Below are positions 4,220 through 49,166 of a DNA stretch of 64,000 bases, piece after piece. Source of the DNA: Paenibacillus donghaensis (GTDB lineage: Bacteria > Bacillota > Bacilli > Paenibacillales > Paenibacillaceae); the NCBI RefSeq assembly GCF_002192415.1, contig NZ_CP021780.1:8246001-8310000 (forward strand). Reading direction: 5' to 3'. The position numbers and the translations under genes are program-made. The stretch's first letter is position 1, and the number at the start of each line of letters is the position of its first letter. The notes under the pieces were generated by a model. The model was not told the DNA's origin. It did no database searches and was given only the letters and a program-made list of their open reading frames with translations.

Positions 4220-4221
4220 AT

Positions 4222-23805: not shown

Positions 23806-23921
23806 ATACAGTAATTATCGGAATTTGTCGGAAATTTGCCTTAAAAAGTAGACATAGCTACCCTTGAATGAGAAAATAGCAGATAGAGACAGTGAGAACA
23901 AAAAAAGGACGGGATATCATC

Positions 23922-24908: not shown

Positions 24909-24933
24909 AACGGATGGAAGCGGGGAGCAGAGC

Positions 24934-26660: not shown

Positions 26661-27671
26661 CTAGTCCCTGATGATAATATCTGCCTGTATAAGAATTTTT
26701 TCATAACTGGTGTCTGGATTAAGGATTCTCCATAGCATTTGATCTACAGCTCTTTTACCAAGCAGCTCTTTATTTACATTAACGGTTGCCAGGAACGGTA
26801 TGGAAGGGTGCGTATTATCGAAACCGGTAAATACCAGAGTGTCAGGAATAGGCATGCCCATTATTTCCATCGTCTCTATGGCGAACAAAGCGTAAATATC
26901 GTTTGCACATACAAAGACCTCAGGCAGTCCGTGTTCGGTAATAACAGCCGTGAATGTTTCTCTGAAGTTTTCAATATCGGGCCCGTTAAGTGAGGGGTTC
27001 TGCTTAAGTTCGATATCGTTATCTTCCAATGCTGCCCGAAAGGCAAGGAATCGTTCATAAAAGCTATGGGCATCACGTATATTTCCTAGAAACTGATAGT
27101 CTCGGTAGCCCTTGTTAATGACAAGGTTCATCATTTCTTTCATGCAGGACAGATTATCGGTAAAGATAGAATCGCATTGGAAGCTGGGGTCGAAGTGATC
27201 CACCATCATGACCGGAATGCCAAGACTTCTAATCTCTGCCAGAATAGGTGTTGAAATTGAACCTATAGTAATAACGCCCATGATTGCTTCAGGGTTAAGG
27301 AGCGAAAATACAGCATCATCCTTAGGCTCCGTCAAAGTTAATACGTTGATGCCCCGCTGATTTAATCTGGTAGAGATGCCGTTAAAAAGCGGGCCCCAAT
27401 ATAAAGATTCCGGGTTCTGGAAGCGGATGTTGGGAAATAAGACCAGAATTGTCCCGGACCATTTGCGGGCATCCAGATCTATCATTTCGCCTGGAGCTTT
27501 AGCTTGCGCACTCTTGGAGTCTTTAAAGTAACCGAGCTGCCCGGCGGCTTTGAATATCATATCTCGCGTCTGTGAGCTGACTCCGGGTTTGCCGGATAAC
27601 GCTCGTGACACTGCAAATTTCGATAGTCCCGTAAAATCTGCTATGGATTGTATAGTTACTTTACGTCGCAT
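26661..27671 (-). CDS. LacI-family transcriptional regulator
   Basis: Cytoplasmic repressor of 336 residues. The N-terminal helix-turn-helix and hinge read TIQSIADFTGLSKFAVSRAL then SGKPGVSSQTRDMI. The C-terminal two-lobed periplasmic-binding-like domain has GTILVLFPNI, IPVMMVDHFDP and VFVCANDIYALFAIETM. It is divergent from the large sugar-import and glycosidase operon starting at 28155, with about 480 bp between, which holds two LacI-type operator candidates (27792, 28089). It is therefore the likely local regulator of that operon and of itself. The inducing sugar is unknown; a beta-mannan or beta-glucan fragment is suggested by the GH26 and GH5 genes. Confidence 0.93.
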   Translation of the reverse strand: MRRKVTIQSIADFTGLSKFAVSRALSGKPGVSSQTRDMIFKAAGQLGYFKDSKSAQAKAPGEMIDLDARKWSGTILVLFPNIRFQNPESLYWGPLFNGISTRLNQRGINVLTLTEPKDDAVFSLLNPEAIMGVITIGSISTPILAEIRSLGIPVMMVDHFDPSFQCDSIFTDNLSCMKEMMNLVINKGYRDYQFLGNIRDAHSFYERFLAFRAALEDNDIELKQNPSLNGPDIENFRETFTAVITEHGLPEVFVCANDIYALFAIETMEIMGMPIPDTLVFTGFDNTHPSIPFLATVNVNKELLGKRAVDQMLWRILNPDTSYEKILIQADIIIRD

Positions 27672-27791
27672 AAAATCATCCTATTCTACTTTAATCAGAT
27701 TCTTGGGTAACTCCAGAAGTACATTACAATTTTACATGAATAAAGGGAGACTAACACTTGTTTTTTTACATGTAAAGGAGCATTGTCTTCA

Positions 27792-27806
27792 AACAAACGT
27801 TTTGTT
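27792..27806. promoter_or_regulatory. LacI-type operator candidate
   Basis: AACAAACGTTTTGTT is a 15-bp near-palindrome around a central CG, the usual architecture of LacI-family operators, 120 bp upstream of the regulator gene. Confidence 0.5.
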
Positions 27807-28088
27807 ATCTTTTTATAAGGTTTATTTAGTATTTTGTTTTGTTTGTTTGTTATTTTGATATGTAGAAAATACCATTATTATTACATAAATACAAGTTATA
27901 TACTATTTTTTATATAACTTGGCCTATTTTATACTAGAAATGAGCAGGATGTGGATAAAAAATGATTGACCGTTTATTTAAGTGGTGGTAATATCTGTTA
28001 TGTTAAGAAAAACAAAAAAATAACAAATGAAGGCGGTGTGCCAAACGAATGAAGGGAATTGTGCTGTTGGTATTTTTTTAACCGATTG

Positions 28089-28102
28089 TGTAAGCGCTTT
28101 AT
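28089..28102. promoter_or_regulatory. LacI/CcpA-type operator candidate before the binding-protein gene
   Basis: TGTAAGCGCTTTAT contains the palindromic core AAAGCGCTTA (reverse strand) and matches the cre consensus except near the end. It lies 53 bp before the ATG of the lipoprotein gene, a good place for repression. A related GTAAGCGCT occurs at 29601. Confidence 0.55.
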
Positions 28103-28154
28103 TTAGGGTGGTACAGCACTAACTTAATCATATTAATAACGGGAGGTTCGACAG

Positions 28155-29516
28155 ATGAGAAAGATAAAGGGGTATTCGATGTTATTGTTGTGCTTTGTTT
28201 TTTTATTAACAGCCTGCAGTGGTGGCAATAATGCTGCCAATAGTCCAAAGGTAAGCGCGACCACTGAACCTGTTGCAACAGAAGCAGCGGTGGAAGCGAC
28301 CGCAGAAGCAACGGCAGCACCCGTTGACATGGGCGGACGCATAATTAAGGTCGCAGCCTGGTGGGATCTGAAGCCTGCGGGAAATTCCGCTTCCGAGAAG
28401 GAACGTCTTGCCAAAATTGCTGAGGTAGAGAAAAAGTATAATTGCAAGTTCGAATTTGTAAATGTAACTTTCGAGGAGTTCATGCCTAAATTTACGGCTA
28501 CCGCTCTTACGGGTGAACCCTTTGCCGATATCCTTATTATGGAGTACAACTCGGCATGGCCTGCAATCCTCAAGGGACAGCTGCTGCCGGTAAGCGAATA
28601 TACTACAGCTGCTTCCAATATCAACAATGAAGCCACTCTGCTGGTTAAGGCACCTCAAATTGCAAACGAATACTATGCTTTCGCTGAACCAGGCACCGGC
28701 GGTGCCGGTATCCATTACAACCGTGACTTGTTCAAGAAACTGGGGCTTCCCGATTTGCAGGAGCTGTATACAAGCGGGCAATGGAATTGGGATAAATTCA
28801 TTGAAGTCGCTAAGCAAGCAACCAAAGACACAGATAATGACGGCAAAATCGATACGTATGGATTCTCAGGCTGGGCAATCGATATTCTGCGCAACTTCTC
28901 CGCGGCTAACGGAGGAAAGCTTGTCGACGAAGCTACAGGTACACAAGGTCTGACTGATCCGAAAGTCATCGAGACTGCTGAATTCATCAACCGTCTGTAC
29001 AATGTTGAGAATGTTATGAAGGTTAAAGGTACCGACAAAGTTGGCTATGATGAATTCAATACCTTCAAAGACGGTGATGTAGCCATGTTCCCCGCTCCAA
29101 TTTGGAATTTGGGCGATTTGACCTTTGAATTCGGTGTAGTTCCCTTCCCGAATGGCCCATCAGGCTCTCCTGAAGTTACCTATGCCGATAATGGCAAGAA
29201 TGCATTTTTCATTCCCAAAGGTGTAAAAGATCCACAGGCGGTCTACCAAGCTTTTGAAGATACCTATGATATTACCCAAACCGGAGATTTCCCGAGCCAA
29301 GAGTGGCTGGAAAGCATCTACACGCATGAAGAAGATGTAGCTATGATGCGCGATCATATCAACAACACAGGCCAGATTCTGCTGGAAACAGCTTATCCAG
29401 ACTTCCCGACCACCGGTTACATGAAGGACATTATTGTAGAGAATCAATCGGTTACTGCAACTGCCGAGAAATATAAGCCAGAGGCGGAGGCTTCCATTGC
29501 CAAGCTAGGCAAGTAA
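28155..29516 (+). CDS. Extracellular solute-binding lipoprotein
   Basis: Surface lipoprotein of 453 residues. The signal peptide ends in LTAC with the lipidated Cys at 21. A Thr/Glu/Ala-rich spacer of about 30 residues precedes a type 1 solute-binding domain (IIKVAAWWDLKPAG, EPFADILIMEYNSAW, DGDVAMFPAPIWNLG). GGGAGG lies about 8 nt before the ATG. It is the first gene of the long operon controlled by the divergent LacI-type regulator and would supply one of the two downstream permease pairs. A stem-loop and a second operator-like site separate it from the next gene, so its expression can differ from the rest. The likely ligand is a plant cell-wall oligosaccharide, inferred from the GH26/GH5 genes downstream. 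Confidence 0.93.
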   Translation: MRKIKGYSMLLLCFVFLLTACSGGNNAANSPKVSATTEPVATEAAVEATAEATAAPVDMGGRIIKVAAWWDLKPAGNSASEKERLAKIAEVEKKYNCKFEFVNVTFEEFMPKFTATALTGEPFADILIMEYNSAWPAILKGQLLPVSEYTTAASNINNEATLLVKAPQIANEYYAFAEPGTGGAGIHYNRDLFKKLGLPDLQELYTSGQWNWDKFIEVAKQATKDTDNDGKIDTYGFSGWAIDILRNFSAANGGKLVDEATGTQGLTDPKVIETAEFINRLYNVENVMKVKGTDKVGYDEFNTFKDGDVAMFPAPIWNLGDLTFEFGVVPFPNGPSGSPEVTYADNGKNAFFIPKGVKDPQAVYQAFEDTYDITQTGDFPSQEWLESIYTHEEDVAMMRDHINNTGQILLETAYPDFPTTGYMKDIIVENQSVTATAEKYKPEAEASIAKLGK

Positions 29517-29541
29517 TAGAAGCGGTTCGTATCGTCATGGC

Positions 29542-29573
29542 AACAGGGGGACGTCTTGGCGACTCCCCTTGTT
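29542..29573 (+). terminator. Stem-loop between the two binding-protein genes
   Basis: AACAGGGGGACGTC and GACTCCCCTTGTT pair imperfectly. No T-run follows. It may partly terminate or stabilise the upstream lipoprotein message. Confidence 0.5.
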
Positions 29574-29600
29574 GTATGAATTTAGATTTCACCACAGCAC

Positions 29601-29610
29601 GTAAGCGCTC
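29601..29610. promoter_or_regulatory. Half-conserved operator-like motif
   Basis: GTAAGCGCTC repeats the core of the 28089 site, 45 bp before the GTG start of the 977-residue gene. It may be an internal operator or cre. Weak on sequence alone. Confidence 0.35.
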
Positions 29611-29654
29611 CTATACAGGGAGAGAACCGCTTGCGCTTGTAAGGAGGACTTCTG

Positions 29655-32588
29655 GTGATAAGTAGAATTCGTCATTCCACAATAGCCAAGAATATAATGC
29701 TTGCTGTTATGGCAGGGTTACTCATGCTTCCAGCAGGCTTAAATGTACAGGTAGATGCAAGCGAGAAGGCTGCGCCCACGGAAGAGCAGGCACCCATGGA
29801 TACAACGGCTACAGCGGAGACAGCGGCTTTTAATGAAGATAAATACGTATCTTATGTGACTAAACATGAGGGGGCTCCCAGACCTGATCAAGAAATCGTA
29901 CTGGAGGCTGCTAATTATAGTCATGTTGAGGGTAGTGGCTTCGAGAAGCTGTCTGATTATGAAGGGATGGCAGGCCAATCGCTGTTAACGGGTGAATCCG
30001 GCAAGGCAGAGTGGACTGTTCAAGTCGGGGAAACGGGTTTCTACAATTTATCCATGCTCTATTATCCAGTCGAAGGGAAAAGCTCAGCTATCGAGCGCGC
30101 GTTATACATTGATGGTCAACTCCCTTTTCGGGAAGCTGCCTTCTTGCAGTTTGACCGGATTTGGGATGACCAATTGGACCAGCTTGTGGAGGACAATCAG
30201 GGCAATGACCTGAGGCCAAGACAGGTTGAGAAACCGCGCTGGAGCGAAAAAGCGTTCCAGGACTCCGATGGCTATGAGAATGAGCCCTTTTTATTTTATT
30301 TGTCTAAAGGCACACATACGTTAACCTTGGAATCTACAAGAGAGCCCGTCGTGATTAAGCAGTTGAAGCTGTACAAGCAGCCTGTACCGCTGCCGTATGA
30401 AGAAGTGAAGAAACAATTGGATGCCGAAGGTGCCCAGGACTCAAGCGGACAACTCCTGACAATTGAGGGTGAAGATGCAGCAGCCAAATCATCCCCAACC
30501 CTGTACCCGCTCAGCGAACGTTCCAGTGCCGCAGTTCATCCTTACAGTTCCTCCAAAATTAAAATCAATACCATTGGCGGACTCAATTGGCGAATACCTG
30601 GGCAGTGGATTGAATGGGAAATTGATGTTCCTGAGACCGGATTCTATAAAATGGCCTTTAAAACACAGCAAAATTATGTGAGAGGGATCTATTCCACCCG
30701 GAGACTGACCATCGATGGTGTAGTACCGTTTGCGGAAAATTCAAAGGTGCCCTTTCGATATAAAAGCTCCTACCGGTTGGACGTTATGGGTGGAAATGAC
30801 CCCTATTTATACAAGCTGGACAAGGGCAAACATCTTGTGAGGCTTGAGGTAAGCCTGGGCGAGTTCGCCCCTTTGATCCGCGAGGTGGAGGACAGCCTGT
30901 ACAATCTCAATTCCATGTACCGCAAGATCCTGATGATTACAGGGACCAAGCCGGACGAATACCGTGATTACCAGCTGGATAAAAAAGTGCCGGACCTGCT
31001 GGAAGTGTTCGCTGCCGAACGGGACCGCTTAGATGGGATTGCCAAGCGATTGGTCCAGCTGTCAGGGCAATCCAGTGATCAGGAAGCGCTCCTCAAAACC
31101 ATGGCAGAGCAGCTGGATGATTTGATTGATGATCCGGATACCATCCCAAGAAGACTTACCGCCTACAAGACGAATACCGGCGGGCTTGGCACATGGGTCC
31201 AAACCGCCAGAGAGCAGCCGCTTGAAGTAGATGCGCTGTATGTAGCTTCTCCTGACAAGAAGTTTCCCAAAAAAGGGATGGGCTTTGGCTCGAAGCTGAA
31301 GCATGAGACGGCCACCTTCGTCGCCTCCTTCTTTACCGATTACAACCAAATTGGAAACGTGTCTGAGCAGGATGACCAGAAATCCGTTACGGTATGGATC
31401 GGAAGCGGGCGGGATCAGGCGAACACGATGAAGGCCATGATCGATGAGACGTTTACCTCTGCCACCGGCATTAATGTCAATCTGAAGCTCGTCAACATGG
31501 GGACGTTGCTTCCGGCAACCTTAGCCGGGCAAGGACCCGATGTGGCTATGCAGATTGGTAATGATCTGCCTGTTAACTTCGCTATGCGTAATGCGGCGGC
31601 AGATTTGACGCAGTTCAGTGACTTTGCTGAAGTGAGCAGCCGTTTCCGTGAGAGCGCTGTTGTGCCTTACAGGTATGACAGCGGAGTGTATGCGTTACCT
31701 GAGACCCAGACCTTCAACATGCTCTTCTACCGTAAAGATATCCTGGAGGAGCTTCACCTGCAGGTGCCGCAGACTTGGGATGAGGTCTCCACTTTGCTTG
31801 CTGTGCTTAGCAAGAACCATATGCAGTTTGGCCTGCCGGTGGTGATTCAATCCGCCATACAAGGGCAGAACATCCCGCCTAACTCGATGTACGCAGCTCT
31901 GCTGTTTCAGAATGGCGGACAATTCTATCGGGATGGCGGACAGGAGTCCGATCTCGATTCCCGGACCGGAATGGAAACGTTCAAGCAGTGGACCGAGTTT
32001 TACACGGATTACAAGCTCGAACGCGAATATGATTTCGCCAATCGTTTCCGTACGGGGGAAATGCCTTTCGGCATAGCCGATTATACCCTCTATAATCAGC
32101 TGTCTGTATTTGCTCCGGAGATTAGAGGCATGTGGGGTTTCGTGCCGATTCCAGGAACCGTGCAAGAAGACGGCACATTGGACCGCACCGTATCCAGCGG
32201 GGGAAGTGGTGTCGTAATGATGGATAAGGCCAAGGACAAAGATGCGTCCTGGGAGTTCATGAAATGGTGGACGAGTGAAGAGACGCAAACGGTGTTCGGA
32301 CGTGAGATGGAAGGCCTGATGGGCGCTGCCGCACGTTATCCGACGGCTAACATCAAAGCACTGGACAGCTTGCCTTGGCCGATTGCCGATTATGATAATC
32401 TGAAAGCCCAGTTCGAGTGGGCAGAAGGTGTTCCTGAAGTTCCGGGCGGATATTTCACGGGCAGACATTTATTTAACGCGTTCTACAAAACGGTAGTCGG
32501 CAAAGTGGAAGCGCGGGAATCCATTATGGACTATGTCCAATATATTCAGGATGAGATCACCACCAAACGGAAAGAGTTTGGTCTATAG
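29655..32588 (+). CDS. 977-residue secreted fusion: carbohydrate-binding-like domains plus solute-binding domain
   Basis: Large extracellular protein. A signal peptide (to about residue 35, IMLAVMAGLLMLPAG) lacks a lipobox Cys. Two repeated beta-rich modules follow, each with an EAxxY/EGED-like start and a WTVQVGETGFYNL or WEIDVPETGFYKM core (about 75-245 and 265-400), resembling CBM35/CBM6-type domains. A helical linker (about 410-570) leads to a solute-binding domain (about 575-950; VTVWIGSGRDQ, GQGPDVAMQIGNDLP). Translation starts at GTG 29655 after AAGGAGG. It is followed immediately by a permease pair, so it probably serves as that importer's binding protein while also holding polymer through its extra modules. 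How it is kept at the surface is unclear, since it has no lipid, LPXTG or SLH anchor. Module names are inferred from pattern only. Confidence 0.85.
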   Translation: MISRIRHSTIAKNIMLAVMAGLLMLPAGLNVQVDASEKAAPTEEQAPMDTTATAETAAFNEDKYVSYVTKHEGAPRPDQEIVLEAANYSHVEGSGFEKLSDYEGMAGQSLLTGESGKAEWTVQVGETGFYNLSMLYYPVEGKSSAIERALYIDGQLPFREAAFLQFDRIWDDQLDQLVEDNQGNDLRPRQVEKPRWSEKAFQDSDGYENEPFLFYLSKGTHTLTLESTREPVVIKQLKLYKQPVPLPYEEVKKQLDAEGAQDSSGQLLTIEGEDAAAKSSPTLYPLSERSSAAVHPYSSSKIKINTIGGLNWRIPGQWIEWEIDVPETGFYKMAFKTQQNYVRGIYSTRRLTIDGVVPFAENSKVPFRYKSSYRLDVMGGNDPYLYKLDKGKHLVRLEVSLGEFAPLIREVEDSLYNLNSMYRKILMITGTKPDEYRDYQLDKKVPDLLEVFAAERDRLDGIAKRLVQLSGQSSDQEALLKTMAEQLDDLIDDPDTIPRRLTAYKTNTGGLGTWVQTAREQPLEVDALYVASPDKKFPKKGMGFGSKLKHETATFVASFFTDYNQIGNVSEQDDQKSVTVWIGSGRDQANTMKAMIDETFTSATGINVNLKLVNMGTLLPATLAGQGPDVAMQIGNDLPVNFAMRNAAADLTQFSDFAEVSSRFRESAVVPYRYDSGVYALPETQTFNMLFYRKDILEELHLQVPQTWDEVSTLLAVLSKNHMQFGLPVVIQSAIQGQNIPPNSMYAALLFQNGGQFYRDGGQESDLDSRTGMETFKQWTEFYTDYKLEREYDFANRFRTGEMPFGIADYTLYNQLSVFAPEIRGMWGFVPIPGTVQEDGTLDRTVSSGGSGVVMMDKAKDKDASWEFMKWWTSEETQTVFGREMEGLMGAAARYPTANIKALDSLPWPIADYDNLKAQFEWAEGVPEVPGGYFTGRHLFNAFYKTVVGKVEARESIMDYVQYIQDEITTKRKEFGL

Positions 32589-32608
32589 CGTAAGGGGGAG
32601 GGTCAAGC

Positions 32609-33514
32609 GTGCAAAATTGGTGGAGCCTGAAGTGGCATGAAGTAAGAGCCAATAAGCATTCGTATATTTTGATGGCGCCGTATATGATATTGTTCGCCGT
32701 ATTTACGGTATTGCCTGTCTTAGTCTCGATTGTGCTTAGCTTCACGTACTTCAATATGCTGGAATTTCCAAAGTTTATAGGCTGGCAGAACTATACCCGC
32801 TTATTTTTAGAAGATGATGTATTTCTGATCGCCCTCAAAAACACGCTGTTATTCGCTGTGATCACAGGGCCGATTAGTTATATCGCCTGTTTTGTGTTTG
32901 CCTGGATCATTAATGAGCTGTCTCCCAAGCTTAGAGCCGTGATGACACTCGTTTTCTATGCGCCGTCCATTTCCGGGAATGTTTATTTCATCTGGCTGAT
33001 GATCTTCTCCGGGGACCGGTACGGGATTATGAACGGGTTATTGCTGAAGTTTGGCTTCATTCTGGAGCCGATCCAGTGGCTCAAAACGGAAGGCTACATT
33101 ATGCCAATCATCATCCTTGTTCAATTATGGCTCAGCCTCGGAACGGGGTTCCTCGCGTTCATTGCAGGGCTGCAGACCGTCGATGGAACCTTATATGAAG
33201 CGGGAGCTGTAGACGGAATCAAGAACCGCTGGCAGGAGCTGTGGTACATAACCTTGCCTTCCATGCGTCCGCAGCTGATGTTTGGCGCCGTTATTCAGAT
33301 TACGACCGCATTTGCTGTAGCTGATGTTTCGATTGCACTGGCCGGGTTCCCGAGCGTGAACTACGCAGCCGAAACCATTGTAACGCATCTGATTGACTTC
33401 GGTACGACCAGGTTTGAGATGGGCTATGCTTCATCTATTGCGACAATATTGTTCCTGATTATGGTAGGGTCGAACCTTGTTGTTCAGAAACTTCTTAGAA
33501 AGGTGGGTGAATAG
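32609..33514 (+). CDS. CUT1 sugar ABC transporter permease, MalF type (pair 1)
   Basis: Inner-membrane permease of 301 residues. Hydrophobic segments start with YMILFAVFTVLPVLVSIVLS, and the docking loop reads EAGAVDGIKNRWQELWYITLP. It starts at GTG 32609 with AAGGGGGAGG about 6 nt upstream, 21 bp after the fusion binding protein. Its last codons carry the ribosome site of the next permease. It belongs to the first of two permease pairs in this operon and should partner the 977-residue binding protein. No ATPase gene is present in the operon. Confidence 0.92.
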   Translation: MQNWWSLKWHEVRANKHSYILMAPYMILFAVFTVLPVLVSIVLSFTYFNMLEFPKFIGWQNYTRLFLEDDVFLIALKNTLLFAVITGPISYIACFVFAWIINELSPKLRAVMTLVFYAPSISGNVYFIWLMIFSGDRYGIMNGLLLKFGFILEPIQWLKTEGYIMPIIILVQLWLSLGTGFLAFIAGLQTVDGTLYEAGAVDGIKNRWQELWYITLPSMRPQLMFGAVIQITTAFAVADVSIALAGFPSVNYAAETIVTHLIDFGTTRFEMGYASSIATILFLIMVGSNLVVQKLLRKVGE

Positions 33515-33518
33515 AGGC

Positions 33519-34421
33519 ATGAATCTCCCCTTTCAAATGAATGCCAAACAACGATTAAGCCGATCCATCCGAATGCCCAAAAAGCGGGTGAACCGGTCCA
33601 TATGGGGGACCCTTTCTTTATTCGCCCTGCTGACCGTGTTTGGAGCATTTATGATTCTGCCGCTCGTCTACGCTGTCAATAATGCGTTCAAGCCGCTGGA
33701 TGAGATCTTTATCTTCCCGCCGACGTTATTTGTCCGGCATCCGACGATGAATAACTTTATTGATCTGTTCAACCTGCTCGGCAATTCATGGGTTCCGTTC
33801 TCACGGTATGTGTTCAATACGGTATTTATTACCGGCGTGGGCATTGTCGGACACGTGTTGCTAGCCTCGGCTGCAGCGTATCCACTGGCTAAACATCATT
33901 TTCCCGGCAAAAAGATCCTGTTCAGCATCGTTGTCCTGTCGCTGATGTTCACGCCAGCTGTAACCGCCATGCCAAACTATATGATCATGTCCTGGCTGGG
34001 GCTCATCGACACGTACTGGGCCGTCATTATACCGGCGTTTGCCTATTCACTCGGGTTGTATTTAATGAAGCAATTCATGGAACAGATTCCGGATGTGCTG
34101 CTGGAAGCCGCCAAGATGGACGGCGCAAGTGAATACCGTATCTTCTGGTCCATCGTCATGCCTAACGTTAAGCCGGCTTGGCTGACGCTCATTATTCTAT
34201 TATTCCAGATTCTGTGGGGCAGTGACGGGAACGGGTTCATTTACAGCGAACAGCTGAAATCGCTTCACTTCGCAGCAGCCCAGGTAGTGGCCGGGGGAAT
34301 TGCCCGTTCCGGTGCGGCGGCGGCGGTCGCCCTCATTCTAATGAGCGTGCCCATTACGCTGTTTATTTTCTCGCAGAGCCGGATCATAGAGACGATGGCT
34401 ACTTCGGGAATGAAGGACTAA
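33519..34421 (+). CDS. CUT1 sugar ABC transporter permease, MalG type (pair 1)
   Basis: Inner-membrane permease of about 300 residues. After a basic 35-residue N-terminus come six hydrophobic segments, with the EAA loop EAAKMDGASEYRIFWSIVMP. The ATG at 33519 has AAAGGTGG upstream; an open frame reaching back to 33477 lies within the neighbouring gene and is not preferred. It starts 5 bp after the partner permease stop. The next gene, an NHL-repeat protein, begins 13 bp after its end, so the transporter and the surface proteins form one transcript. Confidence 0.92.
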   Translation: MNLPFQMNAKQRLSRSIRMPKKRVNRSIWGTLSLFALLTVFGAFMILPLVYAVNNAFKPLDEIFIFPPTLFVRHPTMNNFIDLFNLLGNSWVPFSRYVFNTVFITGVGIVGHVLLASAAAYPLAKHHFPGKKILFSIVVLSLMFTPAVTAMPNYMIMSWLGLIDTYWAVIIPAFAYSLGLYLMKQFMEQIPDVLLEAAKMDGASEYRIFWSIVMPNVKPAWLTLIILLFQILWGSDGNGFIYSEQLKSLHFAAAQVVAGGIARSGAAAAVALILMSVPITLFIFSQSRIIETMATSGMKD

Positions 34422-34434
34422 GGGGGGAAGGCAG

Positions 34435-35943: not shown

Positions 35944-36544
35944 ATTTCCGCTGCACCTCATTGTGCATCCGTTTGATAGCTTTTGGGATATGAAGTATGA
36001 AGGGAAAGGTAAAATCCGGGTAACCCTGACGATTCTGCTTCTGGTAGTCATTTCGATGATTCTAAAGAATCAGTTCGCCGGTTTCCTTGTCAATTATAAT
36101 GATCCCCGCCACTTAAACAGCATCACGCAATTATTTACGATTGTATTTCCCTTCTTTCTGTGGTGCCTGTCGAACTGGGCGATCACCACGTTAATGGACG
36201 GGGAAGGGAAATTCAAGGAAATTATGATGGCCACAGGTTATGCGCTCGTTCCCATTGTGATTATTTATACGCCGATGGTTATTGCAAGCCGGTTTATGGC
36301 TGAGGAAGAGACGACCTTCTATTATTTGATGATGACGATATCGTCCATATGGTTTGTAGCCCTATTGTTCGTCGGCATTATGACAGTCCATCAATATACC
36401 GTACCCAAAGCCATTGTAACGATGCTGCTCACGGTGGTTGTCATGGGAATTGTCGTATTTCTCGGAGCGCTCGTATTAAGTATGCTCCAGCAAATTATAG
36501 AGTTCTTCGTTAACATTTATCGGGAATTAACTTTCCGTACGTAA
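35924..36544 (+). CDS. YIP1-family integral membrane protein
   Basis: Protein of about 206 residues with five hydrophobic segments, including VTLTILLLVVISMIL, LFTIVFPFFLWCLSNWAI and IVTMLLTVVVMGIVVFLGALVLS. The N-terminal IVHPFDSFWDMKYEGKGK and overall layout match YIP1-type proteins that occur beside DUF5696 genes in Paenibacillaceae. The ATG at 35924 has AAGGAGGG about 8 nt upstream and overlaps the end of the NHL gene by 20 bp, so the two are probably translated together. A longer open frame from 35834 would overlap more and is not used. Its function in these operons is not known. Confidence 0.82.
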   Translation: MRQDFIKFPLHLIVHPFDSFWDMKYEGKGKIRVTLTILLLVVISMILKNQFAGFLVNYNDPRHLNSITQLFTIVFPFFLWCLSNWAITTLMDGEGKFKEIMMATGYALVPIVIIYTPMVIASRFMAEEETTFYYLMMTISSIWFVALLFVGIMTVHQYTVPKAIVTMLLTVVVMGIVVFLGALVLSMLQQIIEFFVNIYRELTFRT

Positions 36545-36558
36545 AGGAGGCCGCACCT

Positions 36559-39138
36559 GTGAAAAATCGTAAAATACTGGTTGCGGTGCTGGCCTGTGCC
36601 GCAGCTGTCTGTATCCTTGCCGCTTCTGCCTTATTCTTCACCTCCCGCGGAGTCAAGGCTGTTGAAGCCTCTTCCTATATGGAAGTAACTGCTGAGCTTG
36701 AAGCCGGAAGCGAGCTGACTGCACTGCCTGATTCGTCGAAGGGTGTACCGGGAATGCAGCTGGTAGCAGATGATGCAGAGCTGTCCTTATACTACAATCC
36801 TGAAACAACGGAAGTAGCAGTTAAGGATAAACGTCAAGGCCATATCTGGTACAGCAATCCGGTCAACCGTGATGAGGATGCTCTGGCTTCAGGATTCGAG
36901 AAGGAGCTGCTGTCATCGCAGTTAACGGTACTGTTCCGTGACGCTGTAGGTACGCTGGAATCCTATACCAACTTCGCCCAGAGCATCAGCAGCAAACAGT
37001 TTACTGCCGAGAGGATTAAGAATGGGCTTCGTATTGTATATACCATTGGGGATACGTCGATTGGAATCGATGCTCTGCCTAAGTATATAAGTGTAACGAG
37101 AATGGAAGAGAGGGTTCTGTCCAAGCTGGATGAGTCTAGTGCTAAATATGTAAGACTGCGCTATTACCCCAAAGAGGGCAGCCCGGAGGTTCTGGAACGG
37201 ATTGATGCCCAAGTCTCCAAAGCGCTGGTTCTGGGTAAAATGACAGCCGCTTTTACGAAGTCCGGTTATTCTGCGGAAGATCTGGCCTTCGATAATGAGG
37301 AGAATGGAATAGGCGGCGGTGCCGGATCGACCAAGCCAAACTTCGTTATTCCGCTGGAATACCGGTTAGATGGAGGATCACTGGTTGTATCCGTCCCCGT
37401 GAACCAGGTCAAGGAAAGCGGAGAGTATCAGATACGCAGCCTTGAGGTGCTCAATATGTTTGGGGCTGCAGATCAGCAGACAGATGGCTACATGCTCGTT
37501 CCTGACGGCTCTGGCAGCCTGATTTATTTGAATAATGGAAAAGTGAAGGAAGAGCAGTATGTACAGCGTGTGTATGGCCCGGACCCTAACGATAACAGCT
37601 ACAGACGCGGGCAGGTCAGTGAGAATGCAAGAATGCCGGTGTATGGATTAAAGGCCGGTGATGCTGCGTGGTTCGCCGTGATCGAGAAAGGAGATGCCAT
37701 AGCCAGCATAGCCGCCGATATCAGCGGCAAGAAGAACTCATACAATTTCATTCACAGCAGCTACACCTTGCGGGGGGAGGATGAGCTTGAGCTGTACACA
37801 GGCTCTACAATCCAGGAGATACAGCTGCTGAATGAAGAAATATACAAAGGTGATATTCAGGTTCGCTATAGCTTCCTGAGCAAGGACAAGGCCAGCTATT
37901 CAGGAATGGCAGAGCTGTACCGGAATAAGCTGGTGACGGAGGAATCGCTGCAGCCTTTAGAGGAGGAGCAGAACATTCCTTTTTATCTGGGTATGCTGGG
38001 GGCTGTCGATAAACAGAAGTCATTTCTTGGCGTCCCTTACCGGTCCGAGATTGCAATGACCTCCTTCGGGCAGGCTGCGCAAATTGCGGATCAATTGAAG
38101 CAGGATGGCATTGACCGGTTGCTTATGCGGTATACGGGCTGGTCTGAAAAAGGCGTAAACCACGCTACACCAAATAAGCTGAAGACTGAAAGTGTTGTGG
38201 GAAGCAAATCGGAGCTCCTTGAATTAACGAAGAAGCTGGAACAGTCAGGCGGGACGTTATTCCCGGATGTGGCTTTCCAGCAGATTTATCATGATGATGG
38301 CGGCTTTACACCCTCCTCCGACGCAGCAAGATTCGTGACAAGGGAAGAGGCAGAGCTTTATCCTTACAATCGGGCATTTAACAGGATGGATATGACGCTC
38401 GGAAGCTACTATTTATTGTCTCCTGCCAAGCTGCCTTATTATGTTGACACGTTTATGAACAAGTATAAATCCTATGAAATGAAAGGAGTATCCCTGCGGG
38501 ATCTCGGCAGTGTGCTCAGCTCGGACTTCCGGGTTAGCCGGGTCATTCAGCGGGAAACGGCCAAACAAATCGTGGAAGAACAGTTGGGTAAACTTAATCA
38601 GAACATCGGCCAAACCATGATCGCAGGGGGAAATGCCTACGCATGGCCCTACTCCGACAATCTGATCAATGTACCCACATCCTCCAGTGGATTCGTACTG
38701 ACAGATGAAGAAATCCCTTTCTATGAAATGGTCATTCATGGCTTCATCAACTACGCAGGGGCTGCGGTTAATCTGAGTGATGAACAGGATATCAGGCAGC
38801 AGCTGCTTCGCTCGGTTGAGCTTGGTGCGGCACCGCATTTCTCTTGGTCGTATGAACCCTCCTCCAAGCTGAAGTTCACTCATTTTGACAGCATGTATGC
38901 AACCTATTACAAGGATTGGTACGATCAGGCGGTTTCGATGTACAAGGAAGTCAATAACGTGCTCTCCCCCGTACAGAATGCGCAAATCGTGAACCATATA
39001 CGCCATCAGGAGGGTGTTGTGGAGGTAGAGTACAGCAACGGTATAACAATCTATGTCAATTACACTGATGAGGATGTCTCCGTCCAAGGATTCACAATCG
39101 GAGCCGGACAATATGGGATAGAAGGTGGGCAGTCATGA
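36559..39138 (+). CDS. DUF5696-like extracellular protein
   Basis: Exported protein of 859 residues. An N-terminal hydrophobic stretch (ILVAVLACAAAVCILAASALFF) acts as signal or anchor. A beta-rich half (about 60-430) contains MLVPDGSGSLIYLNNG. The C-terminal half (about 480-830) alternates strands and helices, with IDRLLMRYTGWSEKG, TLFPDVAFQQIYHDDGGF and MIAGGNAYAWPYSDNLINVP, a pattern like a glycosidase-type barrel. I recall such features from DUF5696 proteins; enzymatic activity has not been assigned as far as I know. GTG 36559 follows AAAGGAGG. Its end overlaps the next permease start by 4 bp. A surface enzyme or binding protein for the imported glycan is an inference. Confidence 0.8.
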   Translation: MKNRKILVAVLACAAAVCILAASALFFTSRGVKAVEASSYMEVTAELEAGSELTALPDSSKGVPGMQLVADDAELSLYYNPETTEVAVKDKRQGHIWYSNPVNRDEDALASGFEKELLSSQLTVLFRDAVGTLESYTNFAQSISSKQFTAERIKNGLRIVYTIGDTSIGIDALPKYISVTRMEERVLSKLDESSAKYVRLRYYPKEGSPEVLERIDAQVSKALVLGKMTAAFTKSGYSAEDLAFDNEENGIGGGAGSTKPNFVIPLEYRLDGGSLVVSVPVNQVKESGEYQIRSLEVLNMFGAADQQTDGYMLVPDGSGSLIYLNNGKVKEEQYVQRVYGPDPNDNSYRRGQVSENARMPVYGLKAGDAAWFAVIEKGDAIASIAADISGKKNSYNFIHSSYTLRGEDELELYTGSTIQEIQLLNEEIYKGDIQVRYSFLSKDKASYSGMAELYRNKLVTEESLQPLEEEQNIPFYLGMLGAVDKQKSFLGVPYRSEIAMTSFGQAAQIADQLKQDGIDRLLMRYTGWSEKGVNHATPNKLKTESVVGSKSELLELTKKLEQSGGTLFPDVAFQQIYHDDGGFTPSSDAARFVTREEAELYPYNRAFNRMDMTLGSYYLLSPAKLPYYVDTFMNKYKSYEMKGVSLRDLGSVLSSDFRVSRVIQRETAKQIVEEQLGKLNQNIGQTMIAGGNAYAWPYSDNLINVPTSSSGFVLTDEEIPFYEMVIHGFINYAGAAVNLSDEQDIRQQLLRSVELGAAPHFSWSYEPSSKLKFTHFDSMYATYYKDWYDQAVSMYKEVNNVLSPVQNAQIVNHIRHQEGVVEVEYSNGITIYVNYTDEDVSVQGFTIGAGQYGIEGGQS

Positions 39139-40034
39139 GGGGGAATAAGCTCAGCTTAAATCACAAGCGCTCTTTTCTGGGTATAGCCTTTATTACGCCA
39201 TGGCTGCTAGGATTCGTGTTCCTGTTCGCGACTCCGCTCATTCAGTCCATTAAATTCAGCTTCAGCAAATTAACCGTAGATCCATCCGGATTCTCACTGA
39301 ACTGGGTGGGCTGGTCTAACTTCAACAATGCGTTGTTCATAGATGCGTCCTTTAACCGCGTATTAACCGAATCCGTCAGGGATATGGTGCTTAACGTTCC
39401 GATGATCCTGTTCTTCAGCCTCTTCTCGGCAACGCTGCTGAATCAGAAATTCCGGGGGAGAATTCTGGCCCGTGCGATATTCTTTCTGCCGGTTATTCTG
39501 GCCTCCAACGCGATATCGGCGGCAGAAGCATCCGGACTGATCAATCTGGTTGGCGATGCTACGGCTGTGAACGAATTGGGTCAGTCGGGCTCACAGTATA
39601 ATGTCATGTCGATGGTTATGATTCTGAGTGATATCGGTTTGCCGCTGTCGTTCGTGGATTATATTGTGGACGCCATCCTGCGGATCTATGAGATTATTAC
39701 GAGTTCGGGTGTACAGATTCTGATCTTTCTGGCTGCGCTGCAGTCTGTTCCCGGGGCCATGTATGAGGTAGCCAAGATTGAAGGGGCAACCGCCTATGAA
39801 TCCTTCTGGAAAATTACATTTCCGTTAGTGAGCCCGCTCATCCTGACCAACGTTATTTATACCATTATTGACTCTTTCTCGGGCAGTACGGTGACCCGGA
39901 TGATATTTACAACCGCGTTCACCACACAGAATTTCGGTCTCAGTGCGGCGATGTCCTGGATTTATACGCTGATTATCAGCCTTATCCTGATCATTGTGGG
40001 TTATGGGCTATCCAAAAGAGTGCATTACAACTGA
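39135..40034 (+). CDS. CUT1 sugar ABC transporter permease, MalF type (pair 2)
   Basis: Inner-membrane permease of 299 residues with docking loop EVAKIEGATAYESFWKITFP. Compared with the first-pair MalF subunit it has a different N-terminus and an extra stretch of about 40 residues between hydrophobic segments 3 and 4 (about residues 135-185, VGDATAVNELGQSGSQYN onward). Its ATG overlaps the stop of the DUF5696-like gene (ATGA). It starts the second permease pair of the operon. Which binding protein it uses, the 453-residue lipoprotein or one elsewhere, cannot be told from the sequence. Confidence 0.9.
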   Translation: MRGNKLSLNHKRSFLGIAFITPWLLGFVFLFATPLIQSIKFSFSKLTVDPSGFSLNWVGWSNFNNALFIDASFNRVLTESVRDMVLNVPMILFFSLFSATLLNQKFRGRILARAIFFLPVILASNAISAAEASGLINLVGDATAVNELGQSGSQYNVMSMVMILSDIGLPLSFVDYIVDAILRIYEIITSSGVQILIFLAALQSVPGAMYEVAKIEGATAYESFWKITFPLVSPLILTNVIYTIIDSFSGSTVTRMIFTTAFTTQNFGLSAAMSWIYTLIISLILIIVGYGLSKRVHYN

Positions 40035-40057
40035 TAAATAGCAAAGGAGGTACGGCT

Positions 40058-41062
40058 ATGCAATCTCCACTACCTGTTCGTAAAGAGGCGAATCACTATA
40101 GAGTCCAGAAGGCGAGAGGTAAGGCAGTAGATATTCTGTATTCACTGTTTCGCTATGCGCTTGTCATCGGGATTTCATTCATTATTGTTTACCCGCTGAT
40201 TATGAAATTCTCGATCGCCTTCAAAGACAAAACGGACATTTATAATCCGACAATTTATTTGATACCGGTGCACTTTACGCTTGATAACATTAAGATGGCG
40301 ATGCAGATCCTGGACTACTTCCCGCTGCTGGGGAATACGCTGCTCTTCGTCGTAGTAACCACGCTGCTAACCACTGCTTCCTGCGCCTTGGCGGGTTACG
40401 GCTTTGCCCGATTCTCCTTTCCGGGAAGCAACATCCTGTTCGCGCTCGTCGTTCTGACCTTGCTTGTACCCACCAGCACGCTGATGGTGCCGATGTATCT
40501 GCATTTCAGAAGCTTTGATATTCTGGGACTTGTGCAGCTGTTCACAGGCAAAGACGGGATCAATCTGCTCAATACGTATTGGCCTTCCGTTATTACATCG
40601 GCGACAGCTATCGGGTTAAAAGCGGGCTTGTTCATCTATATTTTCCGCCAATTCTTCAAAGGAATGCCGAAGGAAATAGAAGAAGCCGCTCTGATTGACG
40701 GTGCGGGAGGCGTTAAAACCTTCTTGCGGATTATGCTGCCGAATGCAGTCTCCCCAATGATTACCGTCATTCTGTTCTGCTTCGTCTGGCAGTATAACGA
40801 TACCTTCTTCACCTCCCTCTTCATGAGTGAGGTGGCGCTTATGCCTACGAAGGTCAGTTCGTTAGCGGCTCAGGCGAATGCATTGCTTCCGGGCCTGCTG
40901 GGGACAGGGGCGGGCGGTTCGAATATTAAGGCAGATCCAAACCATGTAGCCATGATTATCGATACCGGCATATTGCTGGCCATTATCCCGCTTATTCTGC
41001 TGTATATGGTGGTGCAGCGTTACTTCGTAGAGAGCGTCGAGCGGAGCGGTATTATTGGCTAA
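40058..41062 (+). CDS. CUT1 sugar ABC transporter permease, MalG type (pair 2)
   Basis: Inner-membrane permease of 334 residues, longer than usual because of a basic N-terminus of about 35 residues and an extra segment near the C-terminus (QANALLPGLLGTGAGGSNIK). The docking loop is EAALIDGAGGVKTFLRIMLP. AAAGGAGG stands about 8 nt before the ATG, 23 bp after the partner permease. The GH26 gene follows 34 bp later. It completes the second import channel of the operon. The long MalG form with the Gly-rich insertion differs clearly from the first-pair subunit, so the two pairs are not a recent duplication. Confidence 0.9.
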   Translation: MQSPLPVRKEANHYRVQKARGKAVDILYSLFRYALVIGISFIIVYPLIMKFSIAFKDKTDIYNPTIYLIPVHFTLDNIKMAMQILDYFPLLGNTLLFVVVTTLLTTASCALAGYGFARFSFPGSNILFALVVLTLLVPTSTLMVPMYLHFRSFDILGLVQLFTGKDGINLLNTYWPSVITSATAIGLKAGLFIYIFRQFFKGMPKEIEEAALIDGAGGVKTFLRIMLPNAVSPMITVILFCFVWQYNDTFFTSLFMSEVALMPTKVSSLAAQANALLPGLLGTGAGGSNIKADPNHVAMIIDTGILLAIIPLILLYMVVQRYFVESVERSGIIG

Positions 41063-41096
41063 CCGATTGATGAAGAAGGATGGAGGAACCTTTAAA

Positions 41097-42122
41097 ATGT
41101 ACAATCAAAGCGATTCCAGATATACAGTGGACCCTAAACTCGTGAATCCGCGAGCAGATGCGAATGCCCGCAGACTGATGAAATATCTATGTGACATCTA
41201 TGGGTCCCGCATATTAACTGGCCAGCAGATTGGAGTCGAATCGACCCCCGAGCTTGATATCCTATACGGGGTAACCGGTAAGTACCCGGCTGTATATGGC
41301 TTTGACTTCATGAACTACTCGCCCTCCCGAACGGAACGGGGGGCAGAGTGCAGGGATACCGACACGGCCATCGATTGGTGGAAGAGCGGGGGGATCGTCA
41401 CCTTTTGCTGGCATTGGAATGCTCCCAAGGATCTCATCGATCTTCCTCCAGACAAGAACTGGGATACCGGATTCTATACCAAGGCAACTACCTTTGACAT
41501 TACGCAGGCGATGGACCATCCGGAATCGGAGGAGTTTCAATTGCTCCTTCGGGATATGGATGTTATAGCGCTGCAGTTGAAACGGCTGCAGGATGCCGGG
41601 GTGCCCGTACTATGGAGGCCATTGCATGAGGCATCGGGTGGCTGGTTCTGGTGGGGAGCGCATGGCGCAGATCCTTGTATCCGGCTGTGGAAACTGATGT
41701 ACGACCGGATGACGAATATGCATAAGCTGAACAATCTGATCTGGGTATGGAATGGCCAGCATGCCGATTGGTACCCGGGTGACGAATACGTCGATATTAT
41801 CGGAGAGGATCTGTATCCTTCAGTCAGGGATTACAGCTCACAGCAGGAGCATTTTCAGAAAGCAAGGACTTATACGAAGCAGAACAAAGTGATAGCCTTA
41901 TCGGAGAACGGCGTATTGCCAGACCCGGATTTGATGCTGAAGGATCAAGCCCTGTGGGCCTGGAACTGCACATGGTACGGCACGTTTGTCTATGTGACAG
42001 AAGATGGCCGAAGAGAATACAGCAGTGCATACACGGAGAGGGAACAGCTGATCAAATATTATGATCATCCTCTTACGGTGACCAAGGATGAGCTTCCAAA
42101 TCTGATAGAATACGATATCTAA
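41097..42122 (+). CDS. GH26-family beta-mannanase-like enzyme, intracellular
   Basis: Glycoside hydrolase of about 341 residues without signal peptide. ILTGQQ near the N-terminus, GFDFM and FCWHWNAPKD fit GH26. The acid/base Glu is at about 178 in LWRPLHEASGGWFWWG and the nucleophile Glu at about 270 in VIALSENGVLPD. Characterised relatives cut beta-1,4-mannans. The lack of export signal points to hydrolysis of imported manno-oligosaccharides. The ATG at 41097 has GGAGG about 9 nt upstream; an open frame from 41055 overlaps the permease end and is not used. It follows the second permease pair directly. A stem-loop after it separates it from the GH5 gene. Confidence 0.9.
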   Translation: MYNQSDSRYTVDPKLVNPRADANARRLMKYLCDIYGSRILTGQQIGVESTPELDILYGVTGKYPAVYGFDFMNYSPSRTERGAECRDTDTAIDWWKSGGIVTFCWHWNAPKDLIDLPPDKNWDTGFYTKATTFDITQAMDHPESEEFQLLLRDMDVIALQLKRLQDAGVPVLWRPLHEASGGWFWWGAHGADPCIRLWKLMYDRMTNMHKLNNLIWVWNGQHADWYPGDEYVDIIGEDLYPSVRDYSSQQEHFQKARTYTKQNKVIALSENGVLPDPDLMLKDQALWAWNCTWYGTFVYVTEDGRREYSSAYTEREQLIKYYDHPLTVTKDELPNLIEYDI

Positions 42123-42163
42123 GACCAGTGCGTTTTGCGCAGGGCGGATACATTTTAGACATG

Positions 42164-42206
42164 AAATGCTGGAGACCCGCTTAAATTGGCCCTCCGGCAT
42201 TTTTAT
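42164..42206 (+). terminator. Stem-loop with T-rich tail between GH26 and GH5 genes
   Basis: AATGCTGGAG and CTCCGGCATT pair with one G-T, followed by TTTTATTT. It could end the long operon or attenuate read-through into GH5. Confidence 0.7.
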
Positions 42207-42227
42207 TTAAGGGAAGGGAGTTGAATC

Positions 42228-44117
42228 ATGTTGCTTAAACGCTTGTTCGTCATTACTTGTATGTTGCTGCTTGCTGTTATGGTGACGGATCTTCCTGTGC
42301 ATGCAGAAACCATAGAAAAGAGGAGTGCCATGCAAGCCTACGTTGAAGCTATCGGGCCAGGCTGGAATTTAGGAAATACCTTTGAGGCTGCCGGGGAAGA
42401 AACCTCATGGGGAAATCCGAGTACAACCCGGGCTTTCATTAACCAAATTGCTGCTGAAGGCTACCGAAGCATCCGTATCCCCATTACATGGAAGCACCGG
42501 ATGGGCGACGCTCCTGATTATGTGATCCAGAACGAATTTATGACTAGAATTCAAGACATTGTTGATTGGTCTCTGGACGCGGATCTTCACGTCATCATTA
42601 ACCTTCATCACGATACAAACTGGATCTTGAACATGGAGACGGAGCATGATGAGGTGGTTGCCAGATTTAATGCGGCCTGGACGCAGATTGCGGAGCATTT
42701 CAAGGATTATCCGGACACCTTGATGTTTGAGAGTCTGAATGAACCACGCTTCTCCGAAGATTGGAGCAAGGACGCCCCTGAATATTTTGAAATGCTGGAT
42801 GAGCTGAACGTTTCTTTCCATACCATCGTTCGTCATTCCGGAGGGCATAACAATAAGCGTCCACTCGTACTCTCTACCCTTACGGCCTCCCCGACGGAGG
42901 CCAGGCTGGATGAGTTAGCCAGCACAATAACGAAATTGAAGGACGACAACCTTATTGCAACGTTCCACTATTATGGATATTATCCGTTCAGTGTGAACCT
43001 GGGAGGTTCAACAACGTTCGATGACAAGGCCAGGGAGGATCTGATTCAAGCCTTCGACCGGGCTTATGATACCTTCACGGCTCAAGGCATACCGGTCATT
43101 GTGGGGGAATTCGGGCTGCTCGGGTTCGATAAATCGCTGGACACCGTTCATCACGGTGAAATCTTGAAGTTTTTTGAATACCTCACCTATTATGCCCAGG
43201 AAAAAAAGATGCCGCTGATGCTGTGGGATAACGGCCAGCATTTCGACAGACGCACCCTCAAGTGGGTGGATGAGGACCTTCATCAGGTTATGAAGCAGGG
43301 GCTTAAGCGCCGTTCCTCCAACGCAGAGACCGATTCTATCTATATTAAAAAGGATTCGGAAATCAAGGACGTGACGATCCCCTTGAATTTGAACGGGAAC
43401 ACCTTCACTGCCCTGATCTACGAGGAACAGGCATTAGTAAAAGGAACGGATTACGAGCTTGACGGGGATAACTTAATCGTTAAATCTGCGTTGCTGCAGA
43501 GGCTTGTTACGAAGCAGAACGGCATCAATGCAACAGTAACTTCCACTTTCAGTGCGGGGGTTGACTGGACTATAAATGTTATTTATTATGACACACCAAG
43601 CCTGACAAGGTCGCAAGGGCCTGAAGGGATCTTCACTATCCCGGCCCAGTTCAATGGGGACAGCCTGGCTACTATGGAAGCGGTCTATACCCAAGGGGGC
43701 AATGCCGGTCCCAATGATTGGACTCCCTTCAAGGAGTACAACCGTACCTTCTATCCGGACTATACCACTGGAGAGATTAAGTTCACGGACGAATTCTGGA
43801 GAGATGTGAAGGATGGGGAAGTGCAGCTGAAGTTGCATTTCTGGAGCGGCGAAGTGATCCCCTATACGATTACAAAAGAAAGCGGGAAAATCGTAGGGGT
43901 ATCCGCAGACGATGCGAAGGAGAAAGCAGCAGAACAAGCAGCCGACACACCGGCAGACTCTGGAAATTCAGCAGCTGCAGCAGTTTCAGCACAGCCCTCC
44001 GGGGATGTTCCCCAATCAGAGGAGGATAACAATAACAGTAGTTTCCTACTGCCGGTATCGGCATTGCTAGTCTTGGCAGGAGCGCTTATCTACTGGAGAA
44101 AGGCAAGAAGGAAATAA
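42228..44117 (+). CDS. Secreted GH5-CBM_X2-CBM46 endo-glucanase/xyloglucanase with C-terminal membrane anchor
   Basis: Exported enzyme of 629 residues. A signal peptide (to about 26, VHA) precedes a GH5 barrel (30-360) beginning GPGWNLGNTFEA. The acid/base Glu is at 172 in SLNEPRF and the nucleophile Glu at 294 in VGEFGLLG. An X2-type domain follows (about 370-465, DVTIPLNLNGNTF), then a CBM46-like domain (about 470-570, FTIPAQFNGDSLATMEAVY), an Ala/Asp/Ser-rich linker and a terminal helix LLPVSALLVLAGALIYW with basic tail. This order matches Bacillus GH5_4 enzymes acting on beta-glucan and xyloglucan. The end resembles a wall-sorting tail without an LPXTG motif, so it is probably membrane-held. 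GGGAAGGGAG precedes the ATG. Confidence 0.9.
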   Translation: MLLKRLFVITCMLLLAVMVTDLPVHAETIEKRSAMQAYVEAIGPGWNLGNTFEAAGEETSWGNPSTTRAFINQIAAEGYRSIRIPITWKHRMGDAPDYVIQNEFMTRIQDIVDWSLDADLHVIINLHHDTNWILNMETEHDEVVARFNAAWTQIAEHFKDYPDTLMFESLNEPRFSEDWSKDAPEYFEMLDELNVSFHTIVRHSGGHNNKRPLVLSTLTASPTEARLDELASTITKLKDDNLIATFHYYGYYPFSVNLGGSTTFDDKAREDLIQAFDRAYDTFTAQGIPVIVGEFGLLGFDKSLDTVHHGEILKFFEYLTYYAQEKKMPLMLWDNGQHFDRRTLKWVDEDLHQVMKQGLKRRSSNAETDSIYIKKDSEIKDVTIPLNLNGNTFTALIYEEQALVKGTDYELDGDNLIVKSALLQRLVTKQNGINATVTSTFSAGVDWTINVIYYDTPSLTRSQGPEGIFTIPAQFNGDSLATMEAVYTQGGNAGPNDWTPFKEYNRTFYPDYTTGEIKFTDEFWRDVKDGEVQLKLHFWSGEVIPYTITKESGKIVGVSADDAKEKAAEQAADTPADSGNSAAAAVSAQPSGDVPQSEEDNNNSSFLLPVSALLVLAGALIYWRKARRK

Positions 44118-44219
44118 AACCTGATTCAAACGGCTGGCAGCAGGCCTATGATATAGTGAGAGTTACTATTGTCAGATGACATTTTAGTATTCTTGATCTA
44201 TTACATAAGGAGGTTCTAC

Positions 44220-46340: not shown

Positions 46341-46517
46341 GCTTTTTGCTGATTCCGATTACCTAATTGGATTGCAGTCGCCACAATAGTCCAACACCGA
46401 TTTAAGTGCGAAAACGCATCTAATTCACCGATTTTTTCTGTTTTGGAGCAAATAAGTGCGAAAACGCATCTAATTTCGAGTTGTGAGCGCTACAGAGTCA
46501 ATTTTCCCCGAAATAGT
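46341..46517. repeat. TAAGTGC/CGCAT interspersed repeat units, left of the IS4-type element
   Basis: Two units TAAGTGCGAAAACGCATCTAAT (split as TAAGTGCGAAAACG plus CATCTAAT) lie at about 46405 and 46455, with TTTTTTCTGTTTTGGAGC between. The same family occurs at 25960-26290, 48063-48150 and 54515-55190. The IS element has inserted at its end and duplicated CGAAATAGT (46509-46517). Confidence 0.75.
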
Positions 46518-49083: not shown

Positions 49084-49160
49084 CGGAAAGTCTCCTATCA
49101 TATATCAGAATAGTGTTATAAATAAGCTATATTATAGTAGTTTTATCGCTTTTTTATCGT

Positions 49161-49166
49161 TATAAT
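49161..49166 (+). promoter_or_regulatory. Candidate -10 box before the GH31 gene
   Basis: A perfect TATAAT lies 41 bp before the GH31 start, preceded by two direct TTTTATCG units (49141 and 49152), which may bind the divergent AraC regulator. No good -35 hexamer is seen, which fits activator dependence. Confidence 0.45.

Follow-up and report, generated by a model that had tools for sequence, protein, structure and literature searches.

A putative composite double ABC importer at the core of a polysaccharide utilization locus in Paenibacillus donghaensis

Gene content and layout of the locus

The window analysed here, a 64,000-nucleotide stretch of the 8.54-Mb single-contig genome of Paenibacillus donghaensis, contains a cluster in which two permease pairs of the CUT1 type of ATP-binding cassette (ABC) importers enclose genes for an NHL-repeat protein, a YIP1-family protein and a DUF5696 protein. 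A LacI-family gene on the − strand is followed by SBP1-SBP2-P1a-P1b-NHL-YIP1-DUF5696-P2a-P2b-GH26-GH5, where SBP denotes a solute-binding protein, P a permease and GH a glycoside hydrolase. A sequence-only reading of this stretch had named these genes, and Pfam matches and coordinates confirmed each of them at its place.

The divergent LacI-family regulator gene (26661–27671, − strand; Pfam LacI and Peripla_BP_3) is an optional part of the locus. Between it and SBP1 lies a putative cre-like or LacI-operator-like site, TGTAAGCGCTTTATTT (28089–28104, + strand), the single match to the search pattern within 27672–28154. All further genes are on the + strand. SBP1 (28155–29516; 453 aa; SBP_bac_1) is of the lipoprotein type, with a lipobox-like N-terminus, and SBP2 (29655–32588; 977 aa) comprises two beta-sandwich domains, a linker and an SBP domain (SBP_bac_8 at 598–880). 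The CUT1-type permeases P1a (32609–33514), P1b (33477–34421; start perhaps 33507 or 33519), P2a (39135–40034) and P2b (40058–41062) each match BPD_transp_1. Between the pairs are encoded an NHL propeller–TPR–transmembrane protein (34435–35943; PF01436, 3.8e-12, and profile and fold evidence), a YIP1-family membrane protein (35924–36544; PF04893, E value 4.8e-16; likely start ATG 35924) and DUF5696, a predicted membrane-anchored GH129-fold protein (36559–39138; 751 bits). Among named DUF5696 proteins the closest come from Paenibacillus, that of P. borealis being 85 % identical. The last two genes, both type-specific add-ons as described below, encode a putative cytoplasmic GH26 (41097–42122, likely start ATG 41097; PF02156, 5.3e-84) and a putative surface GH5 with CBM_X2, CBM46 and a C-terminal transmembrane segment (42228–44117; Pfam).

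Successive gaps from SBP2 to P2b are +20, −38, +13, −20, +14, −4 and +23 bp, the P1a/P1b overlap of −38 bp being measured to the earliest start codon in the P1b frame. P2b and GH26 are spaced by −8 bp by frame and +34 bp from the ATG, and GH26 and GH5 by 105 bp; the range of −20 to +34 bp given earlier is reproduced when YIP1 is taken to start at 35924 and GH26 to start at 41097. One transcript across the operon is plausible rather than certain, because SBP1 and SBP2 are separated by 138 bp with a potential stable hairpin (29535–29579, + strand; fold of 29500–29655, z −2.78, 2/200 shuffles as stable), which may possibly lift the level of SBP1 above that of the rest of the operon. Promoter-like (33 observed vs 25.7 in shuffles) and terminator-like sites (15 vs 18.0) were near chance and were not used.

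Conservation of the core across genomes

Locus components were called by profiles grown from the window's genes and run on all frames in two sets of loci. The first held 60 loci for which a DUF5696 match was the sole criterion; 40 of these belong to the window's family (Paenibacillaceae) and 20 to other Bacillota. The second held 80 loci kept of at least 582 relatives, from genomes partly shared with the first; its records are mostly from Paenibacillus, but also from Cohnella, Lederbergia, Gracilibacillus, Mahella, Lachnospiraceae, Clostridiaceae and further metagenome-assembled genomes.

NHL, P2a and P2b were each detected in all 60 loci of the first set, P1a in 55, and SBP2 and P1b in 54 each. 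A separate YIP1 gene was present in 45/60; in all 15 others, NHL and YIP1 are fused, with the YIP1 domain at the C-terminus (157–276 bits), and the two proteins appear to behave as one unit. The entire core was found in 71/80 loci of the second set, the remaining nine being truncated where the contig breaks off within the cassette. In most loci NHL, YIP1 and DUF5696 stand between both permease pairs in strict order. The LacI gene was rejected as a core part, as a homologue lies upstream in only 33/80 second-set loci (divergent in 13 of these).

Genome surveys gave the same picture. Among 299 Bacillota genomes, DUF5696 was above cut-off in 26 (a further seven fell below it); the NHL profile (E ≤1e-20) recovered these 26 and two more genomes in which the match was partial, in one case at the edge of a contig, and the SBP2 profile (E ≤1e-60) recovered 34 genomes including the same 26 (one contig-cut). 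Of the eight extra SBP2 genomes, two have an SBP2-P1a stretch that extends past the end of its contig (3.8 and 4.3 kb long), while in six the match begins only at about position 530, i.e. covers the SBP part. The overlap of NHL and DUF5696 genomes has a hypergeometric P of 2.0e-35, a value that treats genomes as independent, which they are not. Two or three candidates were scored per genome in the NHL and SBP2 surveys, so that copy numbers from these are lower bounds. Within the window's family, DUF5696, which marks the core, was above cut-off in 163/245 sampled genomes.

Permeases of this kind are otherwise abundant in the source genome, which has at least 150 BPD_transp_1 matches (150 of 320 candidates scored) vs one DUF5696 protein and one such NHL protein. 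Two other permease/SBP groups of the window (3386–6558 and 59998–63078), taken as controls, lack NHL and DUF5696; no YIP1 gene occurs among the neighbouring genes scanned, the family not having been searched genome-wide. The proposal that genes for NHL, YIP1 and DUF5696 are conserved alongside both permease pairs, in the context of glycan breakdown, was borne out by gene order across loci, NHL and SBP2 accompanying DUF5696 in 26/26 genomes. On these comparisons the association of the core holds, and it is firmer than was claimed at first.

Two modules and their inheritance

Gene order divides the core into a putative module A (SBP2-P1a-P1b) and a putative module B (NHL-YIP1-DUF5696-P2a-P2b), a set that has been inherited coherently. 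Distances between loci, computed pairwise for each of the nine components, correlate at 0.82–0.96 (121 loci, DUF5696 <95 % identity), NHL–DUF5696 being highest, and for each component the nearest neighbour shares the DUF5696 type in 85 or 86 of the 86 loci that could be tested (113 loci grouped), vs 7–8 on average with shuffled labels; genome kinship contributes to both results. Of 13 same-genome cassette pairs, listed by hand and with two of the 13 from one genome under two names, 12 stay distinct (SBP1 differs by 0.64–0.71, DUF5696 by 0.56–0.67 and P1a by 0.25–0.38), while the thirteenth is close throughout. Conservation is strongest in P1a and P1b, with mean distances of 0.35 and 0.37 against 0.50–0.67 for the others; judged by these distances, P1 is the constant part, and SBP1, DUF5696 and NHL vary most. 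In one locus (L054), the P1b frame is interrupted by ~1.6 kb carrying an opposite-strand open reading frame (ORF) of 442 aa, perhaps an insertion.

P1a and P1b follow SBP2 in 17/17 further SBP2 loci. In the window's family SBP1 precedes SBP2; in many other-family loci and in some loci with module B only it comes after P2b, a position which suggests that SBP1 serves P2. In six multi-copy genomes of 2.1–3.0 Mb, the NHL matches number 11, 10, 17, 3, 10 and 8, and long SBP2 genes are fewer than NHL matches in five and equal in one. Five Bacillota genomes of 2.2–3.0 Mb (G040, G062, G082, G135 and G165) have 8–17 NHL matches each, an expansion like that of polysaccharide utilization loci, with more B than A modules.

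Proteins of the core

The NHL protein has a signal-like N-terminus, NHL repeats and a C-terminal hydrophobic helix; its TPR is below the Pfam cut-off in the window sequence and is supported by the profile. DUF5696 has the GH129 glycosidase fold, with NagBb (5wzn) and DagB (5opq) as relatives at ~15–16 % identity in the aligned part. Its role had been placed outside known systems; it does stand as a conserved member of the set, but the fold means that it is not a blank. Searched against the PDB at E ≤10, a profile of its catalytic half (575–810) did not hit any GH129 chain. At E ≤0.001 the protein matched PF18952 only and not the GH129 model PF11308, which a remote relative could miss; that model matched in 0/10 genomes and in no control genome, and the search is uninformative.

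Among diverse rows of the DUF5696 alignment, position D648 is Asp in 13/23 and D570 in 14/23, and E754 is the sole invariant acidic barrel residue. D648 is no more than a positional candidate for the counterpart of the catalytic Asp435 of NagBb or Asp486 of DagB. An argument that equated T526 with a catalytic Asp of NagBb was withdrawn: T526 aligns with an Asp replaced in the quadruple mutant 5wzq, whereas Asp330, regarded as catalytic, would fall opposite position 534, which is variable, provided that the chain and residue numbers correspond. Two DUF5696 proteins (P0136 and P0140) also carry a precomputed PF10566 match, a second family label on the same barrel.

SBP2, unlike SBP1, has no lipobox, and none was seen in 127 sequences (0/127). 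The SBP2 profile has matches in the PDB, the beta-sandwich domains of relatives are CBM35/CBM6-like, and their N-terminal halves match CBM_35 in 14/20 cases at E ≤1 (best 1.9e-7). The EAA-like loop, by a pattern of our own, is present in 144/145 relatives of P1a, 142/144 of P1b, 144/148 of P2a and 141/145 of P2b; by family assignment and loop pattern, the cluster thus has the features of CUT1 importers (an SBP and two permeases with EAA loops). Such importers use a shared MalK/MsmX-type ATPase. No own CUT1-type ATPase was recognised inside the cassette in 161 loci, four ABC ATPase-like ORFs there being judged non-MalK-type from their first 60 residues. Two OB_MalK ATPases are encoded elsewhere in the source genome.

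Enzymes beside the core and likely substrate

The GH26 and GH5 enzymes had been counted as parts of the machine, a view that did not hold: a same-strand relative of either occurs in 26/32 window-type loci vs 3/93 others, and both were rejected as machine components, being restricted mainly to window-type cassettes. The 79 genes sampled downstream of P2b (25 of 96 families listed) include GH10 (9), GH43 (7), GH30 (5), GH26 (4), GH2 (2), GH42 (2) and single GH9, GH67, GH95, GH113 and Melibiase genes, besides regulators. The enzyme set follows cassette type, with GH26 and GH5 as a type-specific add-on.

GH26 lacks a hydrophobic N-terminus and its nearest solved relative is the endo-mannanase 3zm8 (3.4e-83). 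GH5 has a C-terminal hydrophobic helix and is nearest to 4v2x (1.5e-185), an endo-beta-1,4-glucanase with the same layout. The substrate of the window's version is probably beta-mannan or glucomannan pieces; xyloglucan is possible.

Elsewhere in the window, an ordinary permease/SBP group on the − strand, beside a mannosidase-type GH2 (6761–9304) and a GH36 (9331–11487), occupies 3386–11487 with them and may share a galactomannan or glucomannan diet. An AraC-family regulator gene (− strand) and a GH31 gene lie at 48166–51528; the GH31 is very close to YicI (1094 bits to 8t7z) and is an alpha-xylosidase candidate, which would point to xyloglucan use. Transposase genes flank the GH31 gene at 46483–47841 (DDE_Tnp_1) and 53181–54197 (Transposase_mut). 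After GH5, a 723-aa protein with a methyltransferase domain is encoded at 44169–46340, with strong homologues at the same place in two other loci (L006 and L016). Just before the LacI gene, a GFO/IDH/MocA oxidoreductase gene overlaps one for a radical SAM protein with a SPASM domain (23892–25809), and a pair of + strand ORFs at 12943–15269 that overlap each other (268 and 507 aa) have no Pfam match at E ≤0.001.

Discussion

A Gram-positive polysaccharide utilization locus (gpPUL) has been defined as carrying one or more enzymes that degrade polysaccharides, together with a system for carbohydrate transport and a transcriptional regulator (PMC5320581). By family assignment the present locus has all three (GH26 and GH5; SBPs with CUT1-type permeases; an adjacent LacI-family gene), and by this definition it is a gpPUL with a highly conserved core. 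It shares with gpPULs the degrading enzymes, transport system and adjacent regulator gene, but differs in that NHL, YIP1, DUF5696 and a second permease pair, which that definition does not require, form its constant part (PMC5320581). It resembles CUT1 importers in its SBP, its two permeases with EAA-like loops and its lack of a recognised ATPase of its own; unlike them, it has two permease pairs, the 977-aa unlipidated SBP2 and three extra conserved proteins. DUF5696 differs from the GH129 glycosidases in its predicted membrane anchoring and in catalytic residues that are not conserved family-wide. Our literature search, which covered titles and abstract starts and left most subscription papers outside, found no recognisable description of the cassette, no paper naming DUF5696, and no role in glycan import for NHL, YIP1, DUF5696 or an unlipidated SBP2; NHL, YIP1, permease, operon and DUF are without occurrence in PMC12710961.

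We consider it probable, though with considerable doubt, that the cassette is the constant core of a gpPUL and constitutes a composite double ABC importer of two interlocked modules. Surface endo-enzymes, here GH5, would cut the polysaccharide, and SBP2 and the DUF5696 barrel would hold or trim chains beside the membrane, where NHL-TPR-YIP1 would form the scaffold of module B. SBP1 and SBP2 would pass oligosaccharides to their permeases, P2a/P2b probably being served by the lipoprotein SBP1, a shared MalK/MsmX-type ATPase, encoded at another site, would supply the energy for import, and cytoplasmic enzymes, here GH26, would finish the breakdown.

Several observations weigh against this interpretation. 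In 6/60 loci module B has neither SBP2 nor a full P1 pair beside it, and in five genomes one module A or more was seen with no B in the stretch fetched (long SBP2 genes fetched: 5/6, 4/4, 4/4, 3/4 and 2/3); A and B are thus sometimes encoded apart, and tight coupling in one complex is therefore not proven. The core is dispensable, since 82/245 family genomes have no DUF5696 match above cut-off. In its N-terminus, the SBP2 of the window itself shows no Pfam match to a CBM above cut-off, and any active site of DUF5696 is putative, as are contacts between the proteins and transport itself.

The separate encoding of the modules, the company that SBP1 keeps with module B in several loci and the EAA-like loops of all four permeases, which suggest two complete importers, would also suit two ordinary, independent CUT1 importers in one operon, with NHL, YIP1 and DUF5696 forming a surface adhesion or processing unit that never touches the permeases and is linked to them by co-regulation only. 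We regard this as unlikely, though a serious contender, given that DUF5696, NHL and SBP2 are all present in every sampled DUF5696 genome, that the three extra genes sit in strict order between the permease pairs in most loci, and that other permease/SBP groups of the window lack NHL and DUF5696. Alternatively, DUF5696 might be an active exo-alpha-glycosidase, making the locus a gpPUL of the standard kind whose single conserved debranching enzyme has NHL-YIP1 as its membrane anchor or chaperone. The patchy conservation of D648 and D570, with E754 alone invariant, speaks against this, and the enzymes beside the core span xylan, mannan and other glycans and therefore fit one alpha-glycosidase poorly; we judge it improbable.

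Module A could also be a sensor gating module B rather than an importer, as the strong conservation of P1 and the excess of B over A modules in five of the six multi-copy genomes would allow; yet the P1 loops are kept in 142–144 of 144–145 relatives, as would be expected of ATP-driven import, and we give this little credence. Less credible still is action on the cell's own envelope glycan instead of plant material: the DUF5696 fold is common to alpha-GalNAc and anhydrogalactose enzymes, but the downstream families listed include GH10, GH43, GH30, GH26 and GH67, and the enzyme set follows cassette type.

The composite importer invites comparison with SusCD of Bacteroidota, an outer-membrane, TonB-dependent transporter (SusC) with a lipoprotein (SusD). 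The likeness is one of working principle only, namely a constant capture and import core, changing enzymes and about ten copies in some genomes; the proteins are unrelated, here with cytoplasmic-membrane ABC permeases and no outer-membrane transporter, and neither SusC nor SusD families are among the Pfam matches of the operon proteins. Far less is understood of the way in which Gram-positive bacteria retain long glycans at their membrane and feed them to ABC importers than of SusCD. We tentatively raise the possibility, doubtful at present, that the cassette represents a new importer class, in which a constant P1 with SBP2 and a substrate-specific P2 with SBP1 would be locked by the NHL-TPR-YIP1 scaffold and a possibly non-catalytic DUF5696 chain holder into one extracytoplasmic assembly. 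Such a class would be a Gram-positive functional counterpart of SusCD, with its enzymes swapped and about ten or more copies in some 2–3-Mb Bacillota genomes, where several B modules may perhaps share one A.

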